Assembly (NCBI RefSeq): GCF_900109465.1
Contig: NZ_FOAZ01000009.1
Coordinates: 248,001-312,000 of the forward strand
DNA from: Streptacidiphilus jiangxiensis
GTDB lineage: Bacteria > Actinomycetota > Actinomycetes > Streptomycetales > Streptomycetaceae
Length of the DNA stretch: 64,000 bases
Direction of reading: 5' to 3'
Shown in pieces: positions 54,880-63,329 of the stretch (within the stretch, counting starts at the first letter, position 1; each line of letters begins with the position of its first letter). Position numbers and translations under genes: made by a program. The notes under the pieces were generated by a model that ran no database searches, had not been told where the DNA came from, and worked only from the letters and a program-made list of their open reading frames with translations.

Positions 54880-56520
54880 TCACTGCAGGGGCAGCACCAC
54901 CAGCGTGTTGCCCTGCAGCGCCGCGACCACGGTGGCGGCCGGGTCGTTGGCGATGTCCCACGGCTGGGTCGTCGTGCCTGGCTCGCTGTAGCTCCAGCGG
55001 TGCGAGCCGTCGGAGGTGGACAGCACCCAGAAGCCGTCCGTGCCCGAGGCGGCCGGGACGGCCAGGACGTCGGGGCCGCAGAGCGCGATCGCGCCGCCGT
55101 CGGTGCGCAGGGCGCCGGGCGAGGCGCGCCACAGGACCTTGCCGGTGGCCGCGTCGACCGCCATCACGGCGTTGGCCGGGCCGAGTTCGGTCGTGTAGAG
55201 GGTGCGGCCGTCGGGGGAGAGCAGGGAGTTGCCGAAGTGGTTGGCGGGCGTGCTGGGCTCGATCCCCCACCGTTTGGCACCCGTCCGGGCGTCCCAGGCG
55301 ACGGTCTTGCGGCGCGTGGTGAAGAACAGCCCGAGCGGCTCGGAGACGGCGTTGAACGCCACGCCCTTCGCGCCGATGCCCGGCTCGGAACCGATGTTGA
55401 CGTCCCACAGGGCCTTGCCGGTGGCGGGGTCGCGGCCCGTCACGTGGTCGGCGATGTCGACGCTGAACACCAGCGGCCCCTGGCCGGCGAGGTAGGTCGG
55501 CTGGACGACCGCCAGGGTGCCGAGGCCGGGCTGGTGCCACAACAGCTGGTTGGTCGTCGCGTCCCAGGCGGCGACCGTGGCCGGGGCGCTGTTGGCCAGC
55601 CCGTCCCCACCGGGGTTGTAGGTGCCCCAGGTGTAGACGGTGTTGCCGTTGGTGGCCTCCACGACCAGGACGTACACGCCGGTGCCCGGGCCGAGGTCGC
55701 CGCTCTTGCGACCGGTGGCCGGGTCCAGGACGAGGACGGTGCCCATCTCCTCGCGCATCACGACGTGGTTCCCGGCAACGTAGGCGTGTGTCACGTCGAG
55801 CGCCGCGACGCCGGGATACGTCCAGCTCAGGGTCCCCTTGGCCTGGTCGTACGCCTGCAGGTCGGCGATCTCGGTGGCGTCCTTGGTCACGTTGGCCTTG
55901 ACCAGTACCTTGCCCGCCGCCAGCACGGGCCGCTCCTGCGAGGCCCGGTTGAGGCTGATCCGCCACAGCGGCTGCGGCGCGGTCCCGGGCGCGTGGGACG
56001 CCGGGGGCGAGGCGACGGTGGAGGCGGTGGGCTCGGCGGGCCGCGAGGAGGTACCGGCCCCCGGCCAGCCGCTCGCCCTGCCGTGCCCGGAGCCCGTGCC
56101 GCCGCGGGTCAGCGCGTATCCGAGGGCGGTGCCGCCCGCGAGGACCACACCGGCCCCGATGCTCCACAGCAGGTGCCGTCGCCCGTGGTCGACGGCGGTC
56201 GGCTCCAGGCTGCCGCCGGTGGCGAGCGGGTCCGGGAGAGTGGGGTGCACCGGAGCGCCGGAGGCCCGCGCCGACTGCTGCGCGGGGATCCACCCGCCGG
56301 GCTGGGCGGTGGCCGCGGGTTCACCCGGGCCTTGGGACGGCCATCCCGTCGGGCCTTGGGACGGCTGCCCGGGCGGGCCCGGGGGCTGCTGCTGGTTCGG
56401 CCAGGACCATCTCGGTGCGGCGGGGGTCGCGGGTGGGCCCGTAGGGCTCGGCTGGGCAGGGGGATACGCGTCCGGCCCGGGTCGGGACGTGCCGAACTCG
56501 CCCCCGTGGTCTGGCTGCAC
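54880..56520 (-). CDS. Membrane-anchored PQQ-type beta-propeller protein
   Basis: A 546-residue protein with a Pro/Gln-rich cytoplasmic start (~110 residues; QQQPPGPPGQPSQGPTG), one membrane helix (HLLWSIGAGVVLAGGTALGY), a Ser/Thr/Pro linker and an extracellular PQQ-like propeller (~190-546; LQAYDQAKGTLSWTYPGV; VAAWDATTNQLLWHQPGLG; ATGKVLWRASPGALRTDG). I chose the GTG at 56520, with GGAAGAG directly upstream; the ATG at 56565 lies in a duplicated 16-base repeat. It follows the Ser/Thr kinase with the same layout 85 bases upstream, so it may be a kinase partner or duplicate of its sensor. Confidence 0.78.
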   Translation of the reverse strand: MQPDHGGEFGTSRPGPDAYPPAQPSPTGPPATPAAPRWSWPNQQQPPGPPGQPSQGPTGWPSQGPGEPAATAQPGGWIPAQQSARASGAPVHPTLPDPLATGGSLEPTAVDHGRRHLLWSIGAGVVLAGGTALGYALTRGGTGSGHGRASGWPGAGTSSRPAEPTASTVASPPASHAPGTAPQPLWRISLNRASQERPVLAAGKVLVKANVTKDATEIADLQAYDQAKGTLSWTYPGVAALDVTHAYVAGNHVVMREEMGTVLVLDPATGRKSGDLGPGTGVYVLVVEATNGNTVYTWGTYNPGGDGLANSAPATVAAWDATTNQLLWHQPGLGTLAVVQPTYLAGQGPLVFSVDIADHVTGRDPATGKALWDVNIGSEPGIGAKGVAFNAVSEPLGLFFTTRRKTVAWDARTGAKRWGIEPSTPANHFGNSLLSPDGRTLYTTELGPANAVMAVDAATGKVLWRASPGALRTDGGAIALCGPDVLAVPAASGTDGFWVLSTSDGSHRWSYSEPGTTTQPWDIANDPAATVVAALQGNTLVVLPLQ

Positions 56521-56540
56521 CTTCTCTTCCTTCCTCGTCA

Positions 56541-56572
56541 GTCGGTCATTCCGTCGGTCGGTCATTCCGTCG
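56541..56572. repeat. Perfect 16-base tandem duplication
   Basis: GTCGGTCATTCCGTCG is duplicated head to tail. Each copy contains an ATG for the minus strand, in different frames. More GTCGGTCCG-type units follow to 56610. Confidence 0.85.
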
Positions 56573-56605: not shown

Positions 56606-58972
56606 TCAGTCGGCGGGCAGCGCCGCCAGGACGCCGCTGCCGGTCAGCGCGAGGACGACGCCCGCGCTCGGTACCGCCGTCAGCCGCCACTCGTTGCCGG
56701 AGTCGTCGCTGCTGTCCCGGTACTGCCATTCGTCGCCGCCGTCGGCGGACTTCAGCGCCACCAGCACCGGCTGCCCGGTGACCCCGAGCAGGATCAGGCC
56801 GCCCGCCAGCACCGGGCGGTGGTAGGTCGGGTTGGGGTAGTCGATGGTCCAGCGGGTCTGCCCGGAGCGGACGTCGGAGGCGACGAGCTGGCCGACGCCG
56901 TTGTGGACGCAGTAGGCGCGGGTGCCGTCCGCGCTGAGCGCGGTGGGGCTGTAGGAGTCCTGCCCGCCGTCGGCGGTGAGGCTGCCCTGGGACCAGAGGT
57001 GCGTTCCGGTCGACGGGTTCCATGCCGTCAGCCGGCCGCGGGCCGCCAGCAGGACGCCGCTCGCGAGGGTGAGGTCGACCGGCGGGTTGCCGGCGAGGTC
57101 GCTGCTCTCCCCGAGGCCGGCGGTCCACCGGACCGCGCCGGAGGCGACCGTACGGGCGGTCAACTGGTGGGTGTGGTCGGCGAGGACGACCTGCTGGTCG
57201 TCGGCGACGGCGGAGGAGGGCAGGGCGTGGTCGCCGGTGCCGGTCTGCTGCTGCCACAGCCGGGCGCCGTCGGCGACCCGCACCGCGGTGAGCGTGTAGG
57301 CGGCGGGACCGCCGGTCCCGGGGGTGGCCGAGACCTGTCGGCCGAGCACGAACGCGGTCGAGGCATTGACCGTCAGTACGGACATGAAGACGTGGCCGGG
57401 ATCCGGCGGGACGGTCCGCACCGGGCTGCCCGTCGCGGCGTCCACCACGACCAGGCCTCCGTCGCGGTTGACGGCCAGCACGTCGGTGCCGAAGGCGGTC
57501 AGGTCGTTCAGGTCCCCGTACCCGGGGTCGCTCCAGCGCTGTCGGCCGGTGGCCAGGTCGAGCCCGGTCAGGGTGGCGACCCCGACGCTGCCAGCGTTGT
57601 CCTCGGTCTTCACCAGCACCGTCTGCCCGACCACCAGGGGCGTGGCGTCGGCAGGCTTGGTCAGTCGCACGCTCCACACCGGCTCGGGCGCGACACCCGC
57701 CGGTCGGGCGGACGGCTTGACGCTGAAGCCGCCCGAGGGACCGGCCGCTCCCGCTCCGCGACCGCCGCCGCCCGCGTTCGCGTGCGTCTTGCCGGTGAGG
57801 TCGTAGGCGAGCACGGCGCCGCCGCCGACCAGCGCGGTGCCGGCGGCGGCCAGCACTCCGGCGAGCAGTCGACGTCGCGACGGCGAGGCCGGCCCGGGGG
57901 AGGTGACGCCCTCGTGGCCCGGGGAGAGCAGCACCGTCCCGTCCCTGGGCCCGCCGTCGGACCAGGCCATCGAGGGCCCCGGGACGCCGTCGGCGGGCGT
58001 CGGCGCTCCCGGTCCCCAGCCGCCGGGGCTGCCGTGTCCGCCGAGGTCGCCGCCGCGCGCGCCGGGCGGGAGGCGGTTCGGCGACTCCAGGTCGACCAAC
58101 TGGGCGGCGGCGCGGGCGATCGCCGCGGTCACCGGGCCGGGCAGCCATGCTCCCGTCAGTGCGGCGGTGGCGCCCTGCGGGCACAGCACGGCCGCGAGGT
58201 CGCGTGGCGCCGGGCGCCGTGCGGGGTCCTTGGCGAAGCAGGGCGCGAGGATGTGCGTGAGGGCGGCCGGGACACCGGTCAGGTCGGGTTGGCCGTGGAC
58301 GACCTGGTAGAGCTGGCCGGCCGCGCTGCCCTCGCCGAAGGGCGCCCGGCCCGTCGCGGCGTTGGCCAGCACGGAGGCGAGAGCGAACACGTCCCCGGCG
58401 GGTCCGGTTGCCGCACCCGAGGCCTGCTCGGGTGACATGAACCCCGGTGAGCCGACGACCACGCCGGTCCCGGTGATCCTGGTCCCGTCGACGGCCCGCG
58501 CGATGCCGAAGTCGATGACCCGCGGGCCCTCCGGCGAGAGCAGCACGTTGCCGGGCTTGAGGTCGCGGTGGACCAGCCCGGCGGCGTGGATGCCGACCAG
58601 CGCCTCGGCGAGCCCCGCGCCCAGCGCCCGCACGCTCGACTCGGGCAGCGGCCCGTGGTCGGCCAACGCCTCGCCCAGCGTGGGGCCGAGGATGTAGGCG
58701 GTGGCCAGCCAGGGGGTCTGCGCCTCGGTGTCGGCGTCGACGACGGGCACCGTCCACCGGCTCGAGACAGCCCGGGCCATCTCGACCTCACGCGCGAACC
58801 GTTCGCGGAACTCGTCGTCCGAACTCAGGTCCTGGCGTACGACCTTGACCGCGACGGTCCGGCCCGTGGACGAGTGCGCCAGGTAGACCCGTCCCATCCC
58901 GCCGGCACCCAGCCGGGCCAGCAGCCGGTACTGTCCCAGCTGCCGTGGGTCGGAGTCCTGCAGTGGCCGCAC
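56606..58972 (-). CDS. Ser/Thr protein kinase with extracellular PQQ propeller
   Basis: A 788-residue transmembrane kinase. Residues ~14-265 form a Hanks-type kinase: Gly loop GAGGMGRV (22-29), Lys43 (VAVKVV), HRDLKPGN (135-142), DFG (154-156), GSPGFMSPEQ. A Gly/Pro-rich linker leads to one membrane helix (~368-391; LLAGVLAAAGTALVGGGAVL) and a C-terminal PQQ-like propeller (~410-788; ATLTGLDLATGRQRWSDPG; VLTVNASTAFVLGRQVSA) outside the cell that probably binds a ligand. The GTG at 58972 has GGGGG upstream. It is the likely sensor of a wall or exterior signal. Confidence 0.88.
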   Translation of the reverse strand: MRPLQDSDPRQLGQYRLLARLGAGGMGRVYLAHSSTGRTVAVKVVRQDLSSDDEFRERFAREVEMARAVSSRWTVPVVDADTEAQTPWLATAYILGPTLGEALADHGPLPESSVRALGAGLAEALVGIHAAGLVHRDLKPGNVLLSPEGPRVIDFGIARAVDGTRITGTGVVVGSPGFMSPEQASGAATGPAGDVFALASVLANAATGRAPFGEGSAAGQLYQVVHGQPDLTGVPAALTHILAPCFAKDPARRPAPRDLAAVLCPQGATAALTGAWLPGPVTAAIARAAAQLVDLESPNRLPPGARGGDLGGHGSPGGWGPGAPTPADGVPGPSMAWSDGGPRDGTVLLSPGHEGVTSPGPASPSRRRLLAGVLAAAGTALVGGGAVLAYDLTGKTHANAGGGGRGAGAAGPSGGFSVKPSARPAGVAPEPVWSVRLTKPADATPLVVGQTVLVKTEDNAGSVGVATLTGLDLATGRQRWSDPGYGDLNDLTAFGTDVLAVNRDGGLVVVDAATGSPVRTVPPDPGHVFMSVLTVNASTAFVLGRQVSATPGTGGPAAYTLTAVRVADGARLWQQQTGTGDHALPSSAVADDQQVVLADHTHQLTARTVASGAVRWTAGLGESSDLAGNPPVDLTLASGVLLAARGRLTAWNPSTGTHLWSQGSLTADGGQDSYSPTALSADGTRAYCVHNGVGQLVASDVRSGQTRWTIDYPNPTYHRPVLAGGLILLGVTGQPVLVALKSADGGDEWQYRDSSDDSGNEWRLTAVPSAGVVLALTGSGVLAALPAD

Positions 58973-59124
58973 GCGTGTCCCCCTCGATCGCCGTCGCCTG
59001 GCACCCCCTGACGCAGGCTCACGCATCGTAGTGGTACGGATGCGAACCTCGCGACGGCGGAGTGACCGAGTATCACAGTACGGAATGGATGGTCGTGGCG
59101 CGCAAGGTGTCACGGATCGCGAGA

Positions 59125-59818: not shown

Positions 59819-61495
59819 ATGGCAGAGGCCGCCGACGCGGTGCGGACCGTGATCGTGACCGTGGACGACGATCCCGCCGTCTCCCGTGCGGTGGCCAGGG
59901 ACCTGCGCCGCCGCTACGGGGACCGCTACCGGGTGGTCCGTGCCGAGTCCGGCGCGTCCGCGCTGGAGGCCCTGCGGGAGCTGAAGCTGCGCGGCGTGCC
60001 GGTGGCGGCGATCCTCGCCGACTACCGGATGCCGCAGATGAACGGCATCGAGTTCCTGGAGGAGGCGCTCGACCTCTACCCGGGTGCGCGCCGGGTGCTG
60101 CTGACCGCCTACGCGGACACCGACGCCGCCATCGACGCCATCAATGTCGTCGACCTCGACCACTACCTGCTCAAGCCGTGGGAGCCGCCCGAGGAGAAGC
60201 TCTACCCGGTCGTCGACGACCTGCTGGAGTCGTGGCGGGTCACCGACGGCCTGGCCGTGGACACCACCAAGGTCGTCGGCCACCGCTGGTCGGCGCAGTC
60301 CTCGCAGATCCGCGAGTTCCTGGCCCGCAACCAGGTGCCCTACCGGTGGTACTCCAGCGAGGAGCCCGAGGGCAGGCGGCTGCTGGCCGCCGCGGGGGAG
60401 TCGGGGCTACGGCTGCCGCTGGTGGTCACCCCCGGCGGCACGGTGCTCGTCGAGCCGTCGGAGCGGGACCTGGCCGCGCAGGTGGGGTTGTCGACGACCC
60501 CTGCGGCCGACTTCTACGACCTGGTCGTCGTCGGTGGCGGCCCGGCCGGGCTCGGCGCGGCCGTCTACGGGGCCTCGGAGGGGTTGCGGACGGTCCTGGT
60601 GGAGCGCGAGGCGACGGGCGGCCAGGCCGGGCAGAGCTCCCGCATCGAGAACTACCTCGGCTTCCCCGACGGCGTCTCCGGCGCCCAGCTGACCGAGCGG
60701 GCCCGGCGCCAGGCCACCAAGTTCGGCGCGGAACTGCTCACCGCCTGCAAGGTCACCGGCCTGGAGGTGAACGGCGCCGCCCGCACCCTGCGGTTCGCCG
60801 ACGGCGCCGCCGTCTCCGCGCAGGCCGTGATCCTGGCGACGGGCGTCTCCTACCGGCAGCTGAACGTGCCGGGCGCGGCCGAGCTGACCGGGCGCGGGGT
60901 CTTCTACGGTTCGGCTCTGACCGAGGCGGCGGCCTGCCAGGGGCAGGACGTCTACATCGTCGGCGGCGCGAACTCCGCCGGTCAGGCCGCGATGTTCCTG
61001 TCACGGACGGCCCGGCGGGTCACGCTGCTGGTGCGGGCGTCGCAGCTGGCCGCGTCGATGTCGTACTACCTGCTGCAGCGGGTCCAGGACTCCTCGAAGA
61101 TCGAGGTGCGCACCGACACGGTCGTGGAGACAGCGCACGGCGAGGAGCACCTGGAGGGGCTGACCCTGCGCAACCGGGCCACCGGCGAGGCCGAGCGGGT
61201 CGACGCGCAGTGGCTGTACGTCTTCATCGGCGCCGAGCCGCTCACCGACTGGCTGGACGGCACCGTGCTGCGCGACGCGCACGGCTTCGTGCTGACCGGT
61301 CCCGACCTGACCGCCGACGGGCGCCCGCCCGCCGGCTGGACCCTGGACCGGCCGCCGTACCACCTGGAGACCAGCGTGCCGGGTGTCTTCGCCGCGGGCG
61401 ACGTGCGCGCGGAGTCCGCCAAACGGGTCGCCTCCGCCGTCGGGGAGGGCGCCATGGCCGTCATGCTCGCGCACCGCTACCTGGAGCAGTCATGA
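59819..61495 (+). CDS. Receiver domain fused to thioredoxin-reductase-like flavoprotein
   Basis: A 558-residue three-part protein. Residues 1-130 are a response-regulator receiver with acidic pocket Asp16-Asp18, phospho-acceptor Asp68 (ILADYRMPQMNG), Thr96 and Lys119. Residues ~145-225 are glutaredoxin/thioredoxin-like (VVGHRWSAQSSQIREFLARN; LPLVVTPGGTVLVEPSERDL) but with Ser/Gln where CxxC would be. Residues ~232-558 are a TrxR-type FAD/NADPH protein (VVVGGGPAGL; GGQAGQSSRIENYLGFP; VGGANSAGQA), where the CATC site is replaced (GSALTEAAAC), leaving one Cys373. It is therefore unlikely to reduce disulfides in the usual way. Overlaps the histidine kinase gene by ATGA. Confidence 0.88.
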   Translation: MAEAADAVRTVIVTVDDDPAVSRAVARDLRRRYGDRYRVVRAESGASALEALRELKLRGVPVAAILADYRMPQMNGIEFLEEALDLYPGARRVLLTAYADTDAAIDAINVVDLDHYLLKPWEPPEEKLYPVVDDLLESWRVTDGLAVDTTKVVGHRWSAQSSQIREFLARNQVPYRWYSSEEPEGRRLLAAAGESGLRLPLVVTPGGTVLVEPSERDLAAQVGLSTTPAADFYDLVVVGGGPAGLGAAVYGASEGLRTVLVEREATGGQAGQSSRIENYLGFPDGVSGAQLTERARRQATKFGAELLTACKVTGLEVNGAARTLRFADGAAVSAQAVILATGVSYRQLNVPGAAELTGRGVFYGSALTEAAACQGQDVYIVGGANSAGQAAMFLSRTARRVTLLVRASQLAASMSYYLLQRVQDSSKIEVRTDTVVETAHGEEHLEGLTLRNRATGEAERVDAQWLYVFIGAEPLTDWLDGTVLRDAHGFVLTGPDLTADGRPPAGWTLDRPPYHLETSVPGVFAAGDVRAESAKRVASAVGEGAMAVMLAHRYLEQS

Positions 61496-62979
61496 CCACC
61501 CGCCCGGCCGGTCCGGCCCTGTGCAGCGAGGAGGAGCTGCGCACGCTCTTCCTCTTCGAGAAGCTCACCCCCGAGCAGCTCCGCCGCCTGTGCCGGGACG
61601 GCCACGTCCAGTGGTTCGAGCCGGGCCCGGTGTACCGCGAGGGCGACCCGGCCGAGAACCTGTACGTCCTTTTCCACGGCACCGTCGTGCTCTCGCGCGA
61701 CGTCGGAGGCCAGGAGGTCGACGTCAGCCGCACCTCCGCGCCCGGGGTCTACGCCGGGGCCTTCCAGGCCTACCTGGGCGACCAGGTGCCGCAGGTCTAC
61801 AACAACACGCTGCGGGTGACCGAGCGGTCCCGCTTCTTCGTCCTGCCCGCGGACGCCTTCGCGGAGGTCATGCACGCCTGGTTCCCGATGGCGGTCCACC
61901 TGCTGGAGGGTCTGTTCTTCGGCTTCAAGACCGCGCAGGAGGCCATCGGCCAGCGCGAACGACTGCTCGCCCTGGGCTCGGTGACGGCCGGGCTGACCCA
62001 CGAGCTCAACAACCCGGCGGCGGCCGCGATGCGCGCCACGGCGACGCTGCGCGAACGCATCGCCCGGACCCGCCGCGAGTTCGGCGCGCTCGCTGCGAAG
62101 CCGCCGCACGGGGAGGAACTCTCCTGTCTGGGCGAGCTGCAGGACCTGACGATCGGTCGGATGGGCCGGGGCGAGCCGCTCGGGCCGCTCGAGGCGGCGG
62201 ATCGTGAGGACGAGGTCGACGACTGGTTGGCGGACCACGACGTCGCCGACGCCTCCCAGTTGGCACCGGTCCTGGTCCAGGCCGGGCTGGGCACCGACTG
62301 GTTGGAGGAGATCGCCGACGCCGTCCCCGAGCCCCTGCTGCCCGGAACGCTGGACTGGCTCGGCTGCACCGTCGAGTCCGAACTGCTGCTGGGCGAGATC
62401 GAGGACGCCACCCACCGCGTCTCCGCGCTGGTGGGCGCGGCCAAGCAGTACAGCCAGCTGGACCGGGTGCCGTACCGCAACGCCGACGTGCACGAGCTGT
62501 TGGACAGCACGCTGCTGCTCCTCGACGGGAAGCTCAGCCCCGGGATCACTGTCGTGCGCGACTACGACCGCGCCCTGCCGACCGTCCCCGGCTACCCCGC
62601 CGAACTCAACCAGGTCTGGACGAACCTCATCGACAACGCCGCCTGGGCCATGCGCAACACCGGCGACGGGACCGGAACCCTCACCGTGCGCACCGCGCGG
62701 GACGGCGACCGGGTGCTCGTGGAGTTCCGCGACACCGGGCCCGGCGTCCCCGCCGAGATCCAGAGCCGGGTCTTCGACCCGTTCTTCACCACCAAGCCGG
62801 TCGGCGAGGGCACGGGCCTCGGTCTGGACATCTCCTGGCGCATCGTGGTCACCCGGCACGGCGGCGACCTGCGCCTCACGTCCTCCCCGGGGGACACCCG
62901 CTTCCAGATCCGCCTGCCCGTCGACCCCCCACCGTCCGAGTCCGCTGTGACGACCGATCCGAAACAGGAGCCGCGATGA
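61492..62979 (+). CDS. Histidine kinase with cyclic-nucleotide-binding-type sensor
   Basis: A 495-residue soluble kinase. Residues ~15-140 form a cNMP-binding-type beta-roll (FEPGPVYREGDPAENLYVLF HGTVVLSRD). The phosphorylated His170 lies in SVTAGLTHELNNPAAAAM; a long insert follows before the ATPase domain (NQVWTNLIDNAAWAM; DTGPGVP; GTGLGLDISW). No membrane helices. ATGA overlaps join it to the receiver-flavoprotein gene before and the UBP zinc-finger gene after, so the receiver is its probable target and the signal may be a cyclic nucleotide or redox state. Confidence 0.88.
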   Translation: MTTRPAGPALCSEEELRTLFLFEKLTPEQLRRLCRDGHVQWFEPGPVYREGDPAENLYVLFHGTVVLSRDVGGQEVDVSRTSAPGVYAGAFQAYLGDQVPQVYNNTLRVTERSRFFVLPADAFAEVMHAWFPMAVHLLEGLFFGFKTAQEAIGQRERLLALGSVTAGLTHELNNPAAAAMRATATLRERIARTRREFGALAAKPPHGEELSCLGELQDLTIGRMGRGEPLGPLEAADREDEVDDWLADHDVADASQLAPVLVQAGLGTDWLEEIADAVPEPLLPGTLDWLGCTVESELLLGEIEDATHRVSALVGAAKQYSQLDRVPYRNADVHELLDSTLLLLDGKLSPGITVVRDYDRALPTVPGYPAELNQVWTNLIDNAAWAMRNTGDGTGTLTVRTARDGDRVLVEFRDTGPGVPAEIQSRVFDPFFTTKPVGEGTGLGLDISWRIVVTRHGGDLRLTSSPGDTRFQIRLPVDPPPSESAVTTDPKQEPR

Positions 62980-63329
62980 GCGCCGAGAGCCCGATCGACC
63001 CCACCGTCCCGCCGAGCGGCACCGGCTGCGTCGAATGCGACGCGGCCGGCGGCTGGTGGCTCCACCTGCGCCGCTGCGCGCGCTGCGGCCACATCGGCTG
63101 CTGCGACGACTCGCCGTCCAAGCACGCCACCGCACACGCCAAGGAGACCGGCCACCCGGTGATCCGCAGCTTCGAACCGGGCGAGGTCTGGTTCTGGAAC
63201 TACGACACCTCGGAGTTCTACGAATCCGGCCCCGACCTCGCCGCCCCCGACAGCCACCCCTTGGACCAACCCGTCCCCGGCCCGGCCGGCCGCGTCCCGG
63301 CCGACTGGTCCCAGCGGATCGGCGGTTGA
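62976..63329 (+). CDS. UBP-type zinc finger protein ending in Gly-Gly
   Basis: A 117-residue protein, nearly all a ZnF-UBP domain: Cys18/Cys21 (GCVEC), Cys34/Cys37 (CARCGHIGCC), Cys42, His50, His54 and His60 (KHATAHAKETGHPVI), then GEVWFWNYDTSEFY. In eukaryotes this finger binds the free C-terminal Gly-Gly of ubiquitin. This protein itself ends in ADWSQRIGG. It is joined to the kinase gene by an ATGA overlap, so it is an integral part of the signalling operon. Function in bacteria is not known. Confidence 0.87.
   Translation: MSAESPIDPTVPPSGTGCVECDAAGGWWLHLRRCARCGHIGCCDDSPSKHATAHAKETGHPVIRSFEPGEVWFWNYDTSEFYESGPDLAAPDSHPLDQPVPGPAGRVPADWSQRIGG

Follow-up and report, generated by a model that had tools for sequence, protein, structure and literature searches.

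A candidate two-component system with a cysteine-less thioredoxin reductase-like flavoprotein in Streptacidiphilus jiangxiensis

Response regulators that combine a receiver domain (REC) with a thioredoxin reductase (TrxR) were listed as the 'Mycobacterium-like combination' in a 2018 census in J Bacteriol (PMC5847659). A second group of related proteins carries the NCBI product name 'cyclic nucleotide-binding domain-containing thioredoxin-disulfide reductase'. Here we describe a three-gene unit of Streptacidiphilus jiangxiensis (assembly GCF_900109465.1, genome size 9.5 Mb), which encodes a REC-flavoprotein, a histidine kinase with a cyclic nucleotide monophosphate (cNMP)-binding-type domain and a UBP-type zinc finger protein. 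It lies on contig NZ_FOAZ01000009.1, within positions 248,001-312,000 of the forward strand. This stretch of 64,000 nucleotides is called the window, and all coordinates refer to it. As in the census proteins, the receiver of the window flavoprotein is fused to a TrxR-fold module. The part of the census available to us gives this architecture; the kinase partner, the loss of cysteines, the glutaredoxin-like domain and the UBP finger are features of the window unit.

The unit consists of three open reading frames (ORFs) on the plus strand (59819-63329), in the order flavoprotein, kinase and UBP-finger gene. The Pfam E-values are 4e-14 for Response_reg, 4.5e-34 for Pyr_redox_2, 6e-23 for HATPase_c, 4e-7 for cNMP_binding and 3e-14 for zf-UBP, the last of which bears out the UBP zinc finger named as third gene in a preliminary description of this DNA. 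The two ATGA overlaps between the genes, also claimed there, can be read directly from the sequence. The features are:

59819..61495, plus strand: REC / glutaredoxin-like / TrxR-like flavoprotein, 558 amino acids (ORF, domain search)
59852..60190, plus strand: receiver domain (Pfam, alignment)
60020-60022, 60104-60106 and 60173-60175, plus strand: receiver triad Asp68, Thr96 and Lys119 (alignment)
60251..60505, plus strand: cysteine-less glutaredoxin/mycoredoxin-like domain, with Ser158 and Ser161 at the positions of the redoxin cysteine pair (profile match)
60506..61492, plus strand: TrxR-like FAD/NAD(P)H module that lacks CxxC and retains Arg406 of the NADPH motif (domain search, alignment, fold comparison)
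60908-60919, plus strand: GSAL in place of the TrxR CxxC, residues 364-367 (sequence)
61492..61495, plus strand: ATGA overlap of flavoprotein and kinase genes (read from sequence)
61492..62979, plus strand: histidine kinase with N-terminal cNMP-type domain, 495 amino acids (ORF, domain search)
61591..61881, plus strand: CRP/cNMP-type sensor domain without GE...R signature (Pfam, alignment)
61999..62001, plus strand: His170 of the H-box (HELNNP), putative phosphoacceptor (sequence motif)
62596..62925, plus strand: HATPase_c catalytic domain (Pfam)
62976..62979, plus strand: ATGA overlap of kinase and UBP genes (read from sequence)
62976..63329, plus strand: UBP-type zinc finger protein, 117 amino acids (ORF, domain search, structure matches)
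63027..63221, plus strand: zf-UBP core (Pfam, structure match, alignment)
63090-63092, plus strand: His39 at the position of the USP5 arginine (alignment)

Both cysteine pairs that are usual in such proteins are missing from the flavoprotein, as the preliminary description had stated, with GSAL at the TrxR site and Ser158 and Ser161 at the redoxin site. Two cysteines are left in the whole protein, Cys310 and Cys373. The FAD motifs, the GxGxxA motif and Arg406 of the NADPH motif are kept, and the TrxR residues are replaced by a signature of the family's own (GGQAG.SS, NSAGQAA, SMS.YL and KRVASAVGEG). It had been proposed to align the homologues and see whether the loss of CxxC is universal. Among 168 homologues (167 distinct), namely 80 close ones, 42 kinase-linked ones, 31 with REC but no neighbouring kinase and 15 without REC, not one carries CxxC at the TrxR site; a single protein of the 15 REC-less ones has this motif at another place in its flavin part. 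The window protein also stays below the cut-offs of TIGR01292 for TrxB (235.2 vs 343.45 bits) and TIGR03140 for AhpF (178 vs 503 bits). Because CxxC is gone and the TIGR01292 score is below its cut-off, we consider it highly likely that the protein, despite its TrxR fold, is an FAD/NAD(P)H protein and not a thioredoxin reductase, with FAD binding predicted from the motifs. The predicted model has the TrxR fold with Z ~28 over residues 228-558; it is weak overall (predicted local distance difference test score, pLDDT, 66; predicted template modelling score 0.44), hence we make no claim on domain docking from it, and the comparison barely covered the receiver and glutaredoxin-like parts. The genome encodes a single copy of the flavoprotein, and its one further match is a thioredoxin reductase with CATC (34% identical).

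The cysteine-less glutaredoxin-like domain that had been noted in front of this module is supported by a profile of 39 rows, which matches the mycobacterial protein Rv3198.1 (2lqo) with an E-value of 4e-7. WCGYC of Rv3198.1 corresponds to WSAQS in the window protein. Taken alone, the window segment has a weak GST_N_2 match (E 0.09), and the Pfam Glutaredoxin model matches 13 of the 39 members (E up to 1), the window member not among them. Neither CxxC nor CxxS was found in this domain in any of the 168 homologues. A lone cysteine in the site region occurs in one of the 42 kinase-linked and five of the 15 REC-less homologues.

The receiver had been called complete, and its acidic pair, phosphoacceptor aspartate, Thr/Ser and lysine are all present, with Asp68, Thr96 and Lys119 as stated. 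The triad is intact in all 122 kinase-linked proteins (121 distinct) but in just two of the 31 REC homologues whose fetched stretch has no kinase; 27 of these 31, including both with intact triad, have at least 1.5 kb of downstream sequence. The remaining 29 (all 31 fall within L153-L184) have an incomplete Asp/Thr/Lys triad and appear to be decayed receivers kept as domains. The window kinase has H, N, G1 and G2 boxes, with HELNNP at residue 170, NLIDNA at 378, DTGPGVP at 414 and GEGTGLGL at 438; besides its HATPase_c match, HisKA is found below the cut-off. Kinase and receiver are very likely a cognate pair.

The preliminary description of the sensor as a cNMP-binding-type domain holds for the family assignment, which exceeds the PF00027 cut-off (30.3 vs 27.5 bits), and fails for the GE...R motif, which we take to be the cNMP phosphate-binding signature. 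The window kinase has AGAFQAYLGDQVPQVYNNTLRV at this site. As the signature is absent, cAMP is an unlikely ligand here, and canonical cAMP sensing is disfavoured. Some distant kinase orthologues keep GE..LL...PR.A (for example L146, L148 and L152). In nine of the 10 phylum loci of the receiver-less homologues, called class III, a cNMP-type domain is fused directly to the flavin module. The same fusion is found in the records L198, L199 and L202, and no cNMP-type domain was found in the receiver-less records L194 and L203. The fetched stretches of class III gave no match to a full kinase. The hidden Markov model (HMM) of the kinase matches the class III cNMP domains mostly at 2e-10 to 2e-15, with the weakest match at 7e-6. 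The same type of sensor thus seems to reach the flavoprotein either directly or via a kinase-receiver pair, suggesting that the flavoprotein is the output. The earlier proposal that phosphorylation gates the flavoprotein gains support, because the triad is intact where a kinase is linked and a cNMP-type domain is directly fused in the third class.

There are also loci with more than one kinase. Two or three tandem cNMP-kinases occur in one GTDB family (L308, L309, L310 and L313, also L129, L130, L133, L135 and L136). The flavoprotein-kinase clusters of the same family also carry a diadenylate cyclase-like (PF02457) gene and, where the stretch reaches far enough, DUF924 and MFS-type genes.

The nearest relatives of the flavoprotein in the genome collection are from Kitasatospora paracochleata (88%) and Microtetraspora sp. 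(86%). To the refuting case raised earlier, that the three genes are rarely neighbours elsewhere, we can answer from two sets of loci. The close set comprises the best 80 of at least 535 relatives, mostly Streptomyces, and here the kinase gene follows the flavoprotein gene in 80 of 80 loci and the UBP gene lies behind the kinase in 75. The flavoprotein and kinase genes share an in-frame 4-base overlap in 77 of these loci (45 GTGA, 32 ATGA), and the kinase and UBP genes an ATGA overlap in 73 of the 75. For L051 and L115, the matches to the UBP gene are split between two reading frames, which suggests a frameshift or sequencing error. The second set has 42 kinase-linked homologues, of which 38 are from 296 sampled genomes of the phylum (six from the own family) and four are records from Paraburkholderia, Nostoc, Gloeothece and Nocardia. 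A downstream kinase on the same strand is present in 39 of the 42, while two loci are at contig edges and one has upstream kinases; 18 of the 39 pairs overlap. The pair of flavoprotein and kinase recurs in Actinomycetota, Cyanobacteriota and Pseudomonadota. No neighbour family beyond the three genes was found in all 28 Streptomyces loci searched; the maximum was 18 of 28, and genes for a FAD_binding_2 protein, a LuxR/AAA-type protein and a metallo-beta-lactamase-fold protein are among the partly recurring neighbours. We reject a local accident in view of the kept order, the overlaps and the absence of CxxC from the site in every homologue examined.

The UBP protein has the ZnF-UBP fold and its conserved Cys/His pattern, and the consensus of the bacterial UBP fingers is CxxC...W.HLR.C..CGH.GCCD.S...HA..H....HP. 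Its nearest solved structure is RPA1320 (2IDA; E 9.5e-25). The predicted model (pLDDT 74) is modestly similar to ZnF-UBP domains including HDAC6, USP5 and splicing factors (Z 5-7). The preliminary description had called this a ubiquitin-tail-reading finger. The arginine after CG in USP5 presumably contacts the carboxylate of the ubiquitin tail; in the bacterial alignment this position is a histidine in 124 of 133 rows (119 of 128 distinct). Ubiquitin-tail reading is therefore rejected as the default. The finger may bind a tail other than that of ubiquitin.

In the 296 genomes, 48 have both UBP and the long-form flavoprotein, 23 the flavoprotein only, 20 UBP only and 205 neither (odds ratio 21, p 5e-22, not corrected for kinship). 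UBP was found within 9 kb of the flavoprotein at 21 of 90 places, within 2 kb at 18, and on the same strand in 20 of the 21. Furthermore, the two genes lie within 2 kb of each other in 24 of the 25 plasmid records listed for both, 22 on the same strand, many of these records being near-identical rhizobial plasmids. The UBP finger therefore probably works with the flavoprotein. In Actinomycetota, DUF5996 genes recur near UBP fingers (L204, L227, L234, L251, L259, L282, L293, L298, L308, L310 and L314 are the DUF5996 loci), and one stands beside a UBP gene in a cyanobacterial plasmid.

Besides the flavoprotein, UBP fingers are found together with membrane transporters. We analysed 80 UBP stretches, 70 away from and 10 near a flavoprotein, and 19 of them contain a Na+/H+ exchanger (16 away, three near), compared with none of the 168 flavoprotein stretches. 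With 8 Na+/H+ exchanger genes in the 9.5 Mb of the own genome, the estimated chance expectation is ~1%. In five cases the UBP finger is fused to the C-terminus of an antiporter (L245, L262, L279, L281 and L296), and two further fusions come from Deinococcus plasmid records, L200 (3201-5237, by Pfam) and L317 (by the annotation under the match). These fusions occur with or without TrkA_N. L300 (2588-4243) encodes a fusion of the finger with an LtrA membrane protein. Eight streptomycete loci, including L304 in the own genome, have a UBP gene divergent from an antiporter gene, and the L304 antiporter belongs to the CPA1 type by TIGR00831 (347 bits vs a 280 cut-off). In the lengthened stretches of L308, L310 and L313, a single strand carries the flavoprotein, three kinases, UBP and an antiporter. 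Genes for diadenylate cyclase (PF02457), DUF924 and an MFS-type protein stand between them, and L308 also has LtrA. LtrA also follows a REC-flavoprotein/kinase pair in Nostoc (L196). Based on these linkages, the antiporter is a plausible target of the unit. That the output acts on membrane cation/proton transport is doubtful overall.

On balance, we favour with some reserve a two-component system that has a cysteine-less NAD(P)H flavoprotein as its output instead of a DNA-binding domain. The kinase, with a CRP-type sensor domain whose ligand is probably not cAMP in this lineage, would phosphorylate Asp68. This may alter the packing of the receiver on the inert mycoredoxin-like domain and on the TrxR-fold module, which has FAD and NADPH motifs and would not carry out the usual dithiol/disulfide exchange. 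Because such exchange is impossible without the cysteine pairs, electrons would leave the flavin directly for a non-disulfide acceptor, or the flavin would be a redox-sensing switch. Phosphorylation would control either the electron flow from NAD(P)H to the flavin or a shape that depends on the flavin state, and the output might also be protein binding. The UBP finger could serve the flavoprotein as a zinc protein-interaction adaptor, and the genomic linkage favours a membrane cation/proton antiporter or an LtrA-type protein over a ubiquitin tail as its partner. A tentative and rather unlikely extension is a transcription-free control, in which the phosphorylated flavoprotein gates CPA-type antiporters and LtrA-type proteins via the UBP finger and couples the redox state to Na+/pH homeostasis. 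The finger would then read a protein surface or a tail other than ubiquitin, and one family would add diadenylate cyclase.

Several observations weigh against this two-component reading and its extension. The kinase-less REC homologues (class II) form essentially a single clade, which reduces the triad correlation to one or two events. In a tree of the flavin module (receiver columns left out), there are two changes of kinase linkage and three of the triad, which leaves one independent pair on supported branches and two on all branches, with no significance. The kinase HMM also matches the cNMP domains of unrelated neighbours (L237, L266, L289 and L290), thus the sensor likeness is at family level and no proof of a domain swap. 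The third gene, UBP, is looser than the flavoprotein and kinase: it is absent from five of the 80 close loci (L007, L009, L040, L049 and L085), among them the closest relative, Kitasatospora paracochleata (L007), and in the fetched stretches it lies behind the kinase in just 13 of the 39 distant pairs, 10 with ATGA. In four others (L308, L309, L310 and L313), longer stretches revealed it after two or three kinases. UBP genes are also found beside unrelated genes, such as DUF5996, hydrolases, VOC proteins and chaperones. Furthermore, 61 of the 80 UBP stretches have no antiporter, and eight antiporter/LtrA probes found no antiporter in the 168 flavoprotein stretches (2.0 Mb in total), where they detected LtrA in L006 (weak) and L196. 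The antiporter link is therefore indirect outside one GTDB family. L308, L310 and L313 are close relatives from that family, and the eight streptomycete UBP-antiporter loci are one lineage. Moreover, Cys373, which is common in class I (receiver and kinase) and class III, could be a redox cysteine.

This cysteine would be the starting point for a split thioredoxin-reductase system, in which Cys373 or the conserved cysteines of the UBP finger replace CxxC and the unit is a disguised disulfide reductase. We regard this as very unlikely, as some class I members and almost every class II member lack Cys373, and the UBP cysteines belong to the zinc-finger fold. Another explanation takes the flavoprotein as a co-sensor: the NAD(P)H/NADP balance would set its FAD state, which would alter the receiver and feed back on the kinase, whose signal would then go elsewhere. 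No acceptor is evident, both redoxin cysteine sites are lost, and the three tandem kinases behind one flavoprotein in L308, L310 and L313 could fit a branched wiring. However, the three-gene unit has no second response regulator, and the class III flavoprotein, which bears the sensor domain with no full kinase matched in the fetched stretch, fits an output better, which makes the redox sensor unlikely.

The flavoprotein-UBP pair might also be an accessory of protein quality control, with antiporters as one client among others. UBP and cNMP-flavoprotein genes lie behind dnaJ-type, cbpM, clpB and trxA genes in Rhodococcus (L202) and Streptomyces angustmyceticus (L319), but these are two annotated loci only, both on actinobacterial plasmids, and the scanned neighbours in the window include no recognised chaperone gene, so we hold a stress-chaperone role to be quite improbable. 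The two plasmid clusters themselves, with UBP and cNMP-flavoprotein next to these four genes, resemble a stress-tolerance island. In the window, a Ser/Thr kinase fused to a PQQ-type propeller is encoded upstream of the unit on the minus strand (56606-59113), and behind it is a second long minus-strand ORF (54880-56565) that is propeller-like by eye only.

The unit had been called not a described pathway. The REC-TrxR architecture in the available part of PMC5847659 and the NCBI product name qualify this claim, which stands as regards function: in a literature search that covered few subscription-journal papers, we recognised no study of the unit, of a UBP-flavoprotein or UBP-antiporter link, and found none of a response regulator with a redox flavoprotein output. 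The three classes, with receiver and kinase, with a decayed receiver or with a directly fused cNMP-type domain, are a ready experimental handle. A link of bacterial UBP fingers to antiporters, if true, would provide a role for this widespread family, whose name comes only from ubiquitin-binding relatives in eukaryotes.

Compared with the known systems, the NCBI cNMP-TrxR proteins share the glutaredoxin-like and TrxR-like module with the window protein, the examined fused-cNMP homologues have no CxxC at the site, and a UBP gene adjoins in, for example, L199, L202 and L319. They differ in that the cNMP-type domain is fused directly, with no receiver and no linked kinase seen. TrxB and AhpF have the same fold and the FAD and NADP motifs, and AhpF also has a redoxin-like part before its TrxR part, but in the window protein both cysteine sites are gone and the scores are under the cut-offs. 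RPA1320 (PDB 2IDA) has the CGHVGCCDxS signature of the window UBP protein and is 48% identical to it over the Foldseek alignment; it is a structural-genomics entry named hypothetical protein, for which we found no function. In the KefC/KefB antiporters, a soluble ancillary flavoprotein, KefF/KefG, is thought to control cation/proton antiport. The fold of KefF differs from the TrxR fold of the window flavoprotein, and the flavoprotein cluster and an antiporter were seen together in just one GTDB family (L308, L310 and L313). A Kef-like antiporter with a UBP finger is present in Deinococcus ficus. KefC with KefF is the nearest functional analogy to the unit, by resemblance and not by membership.

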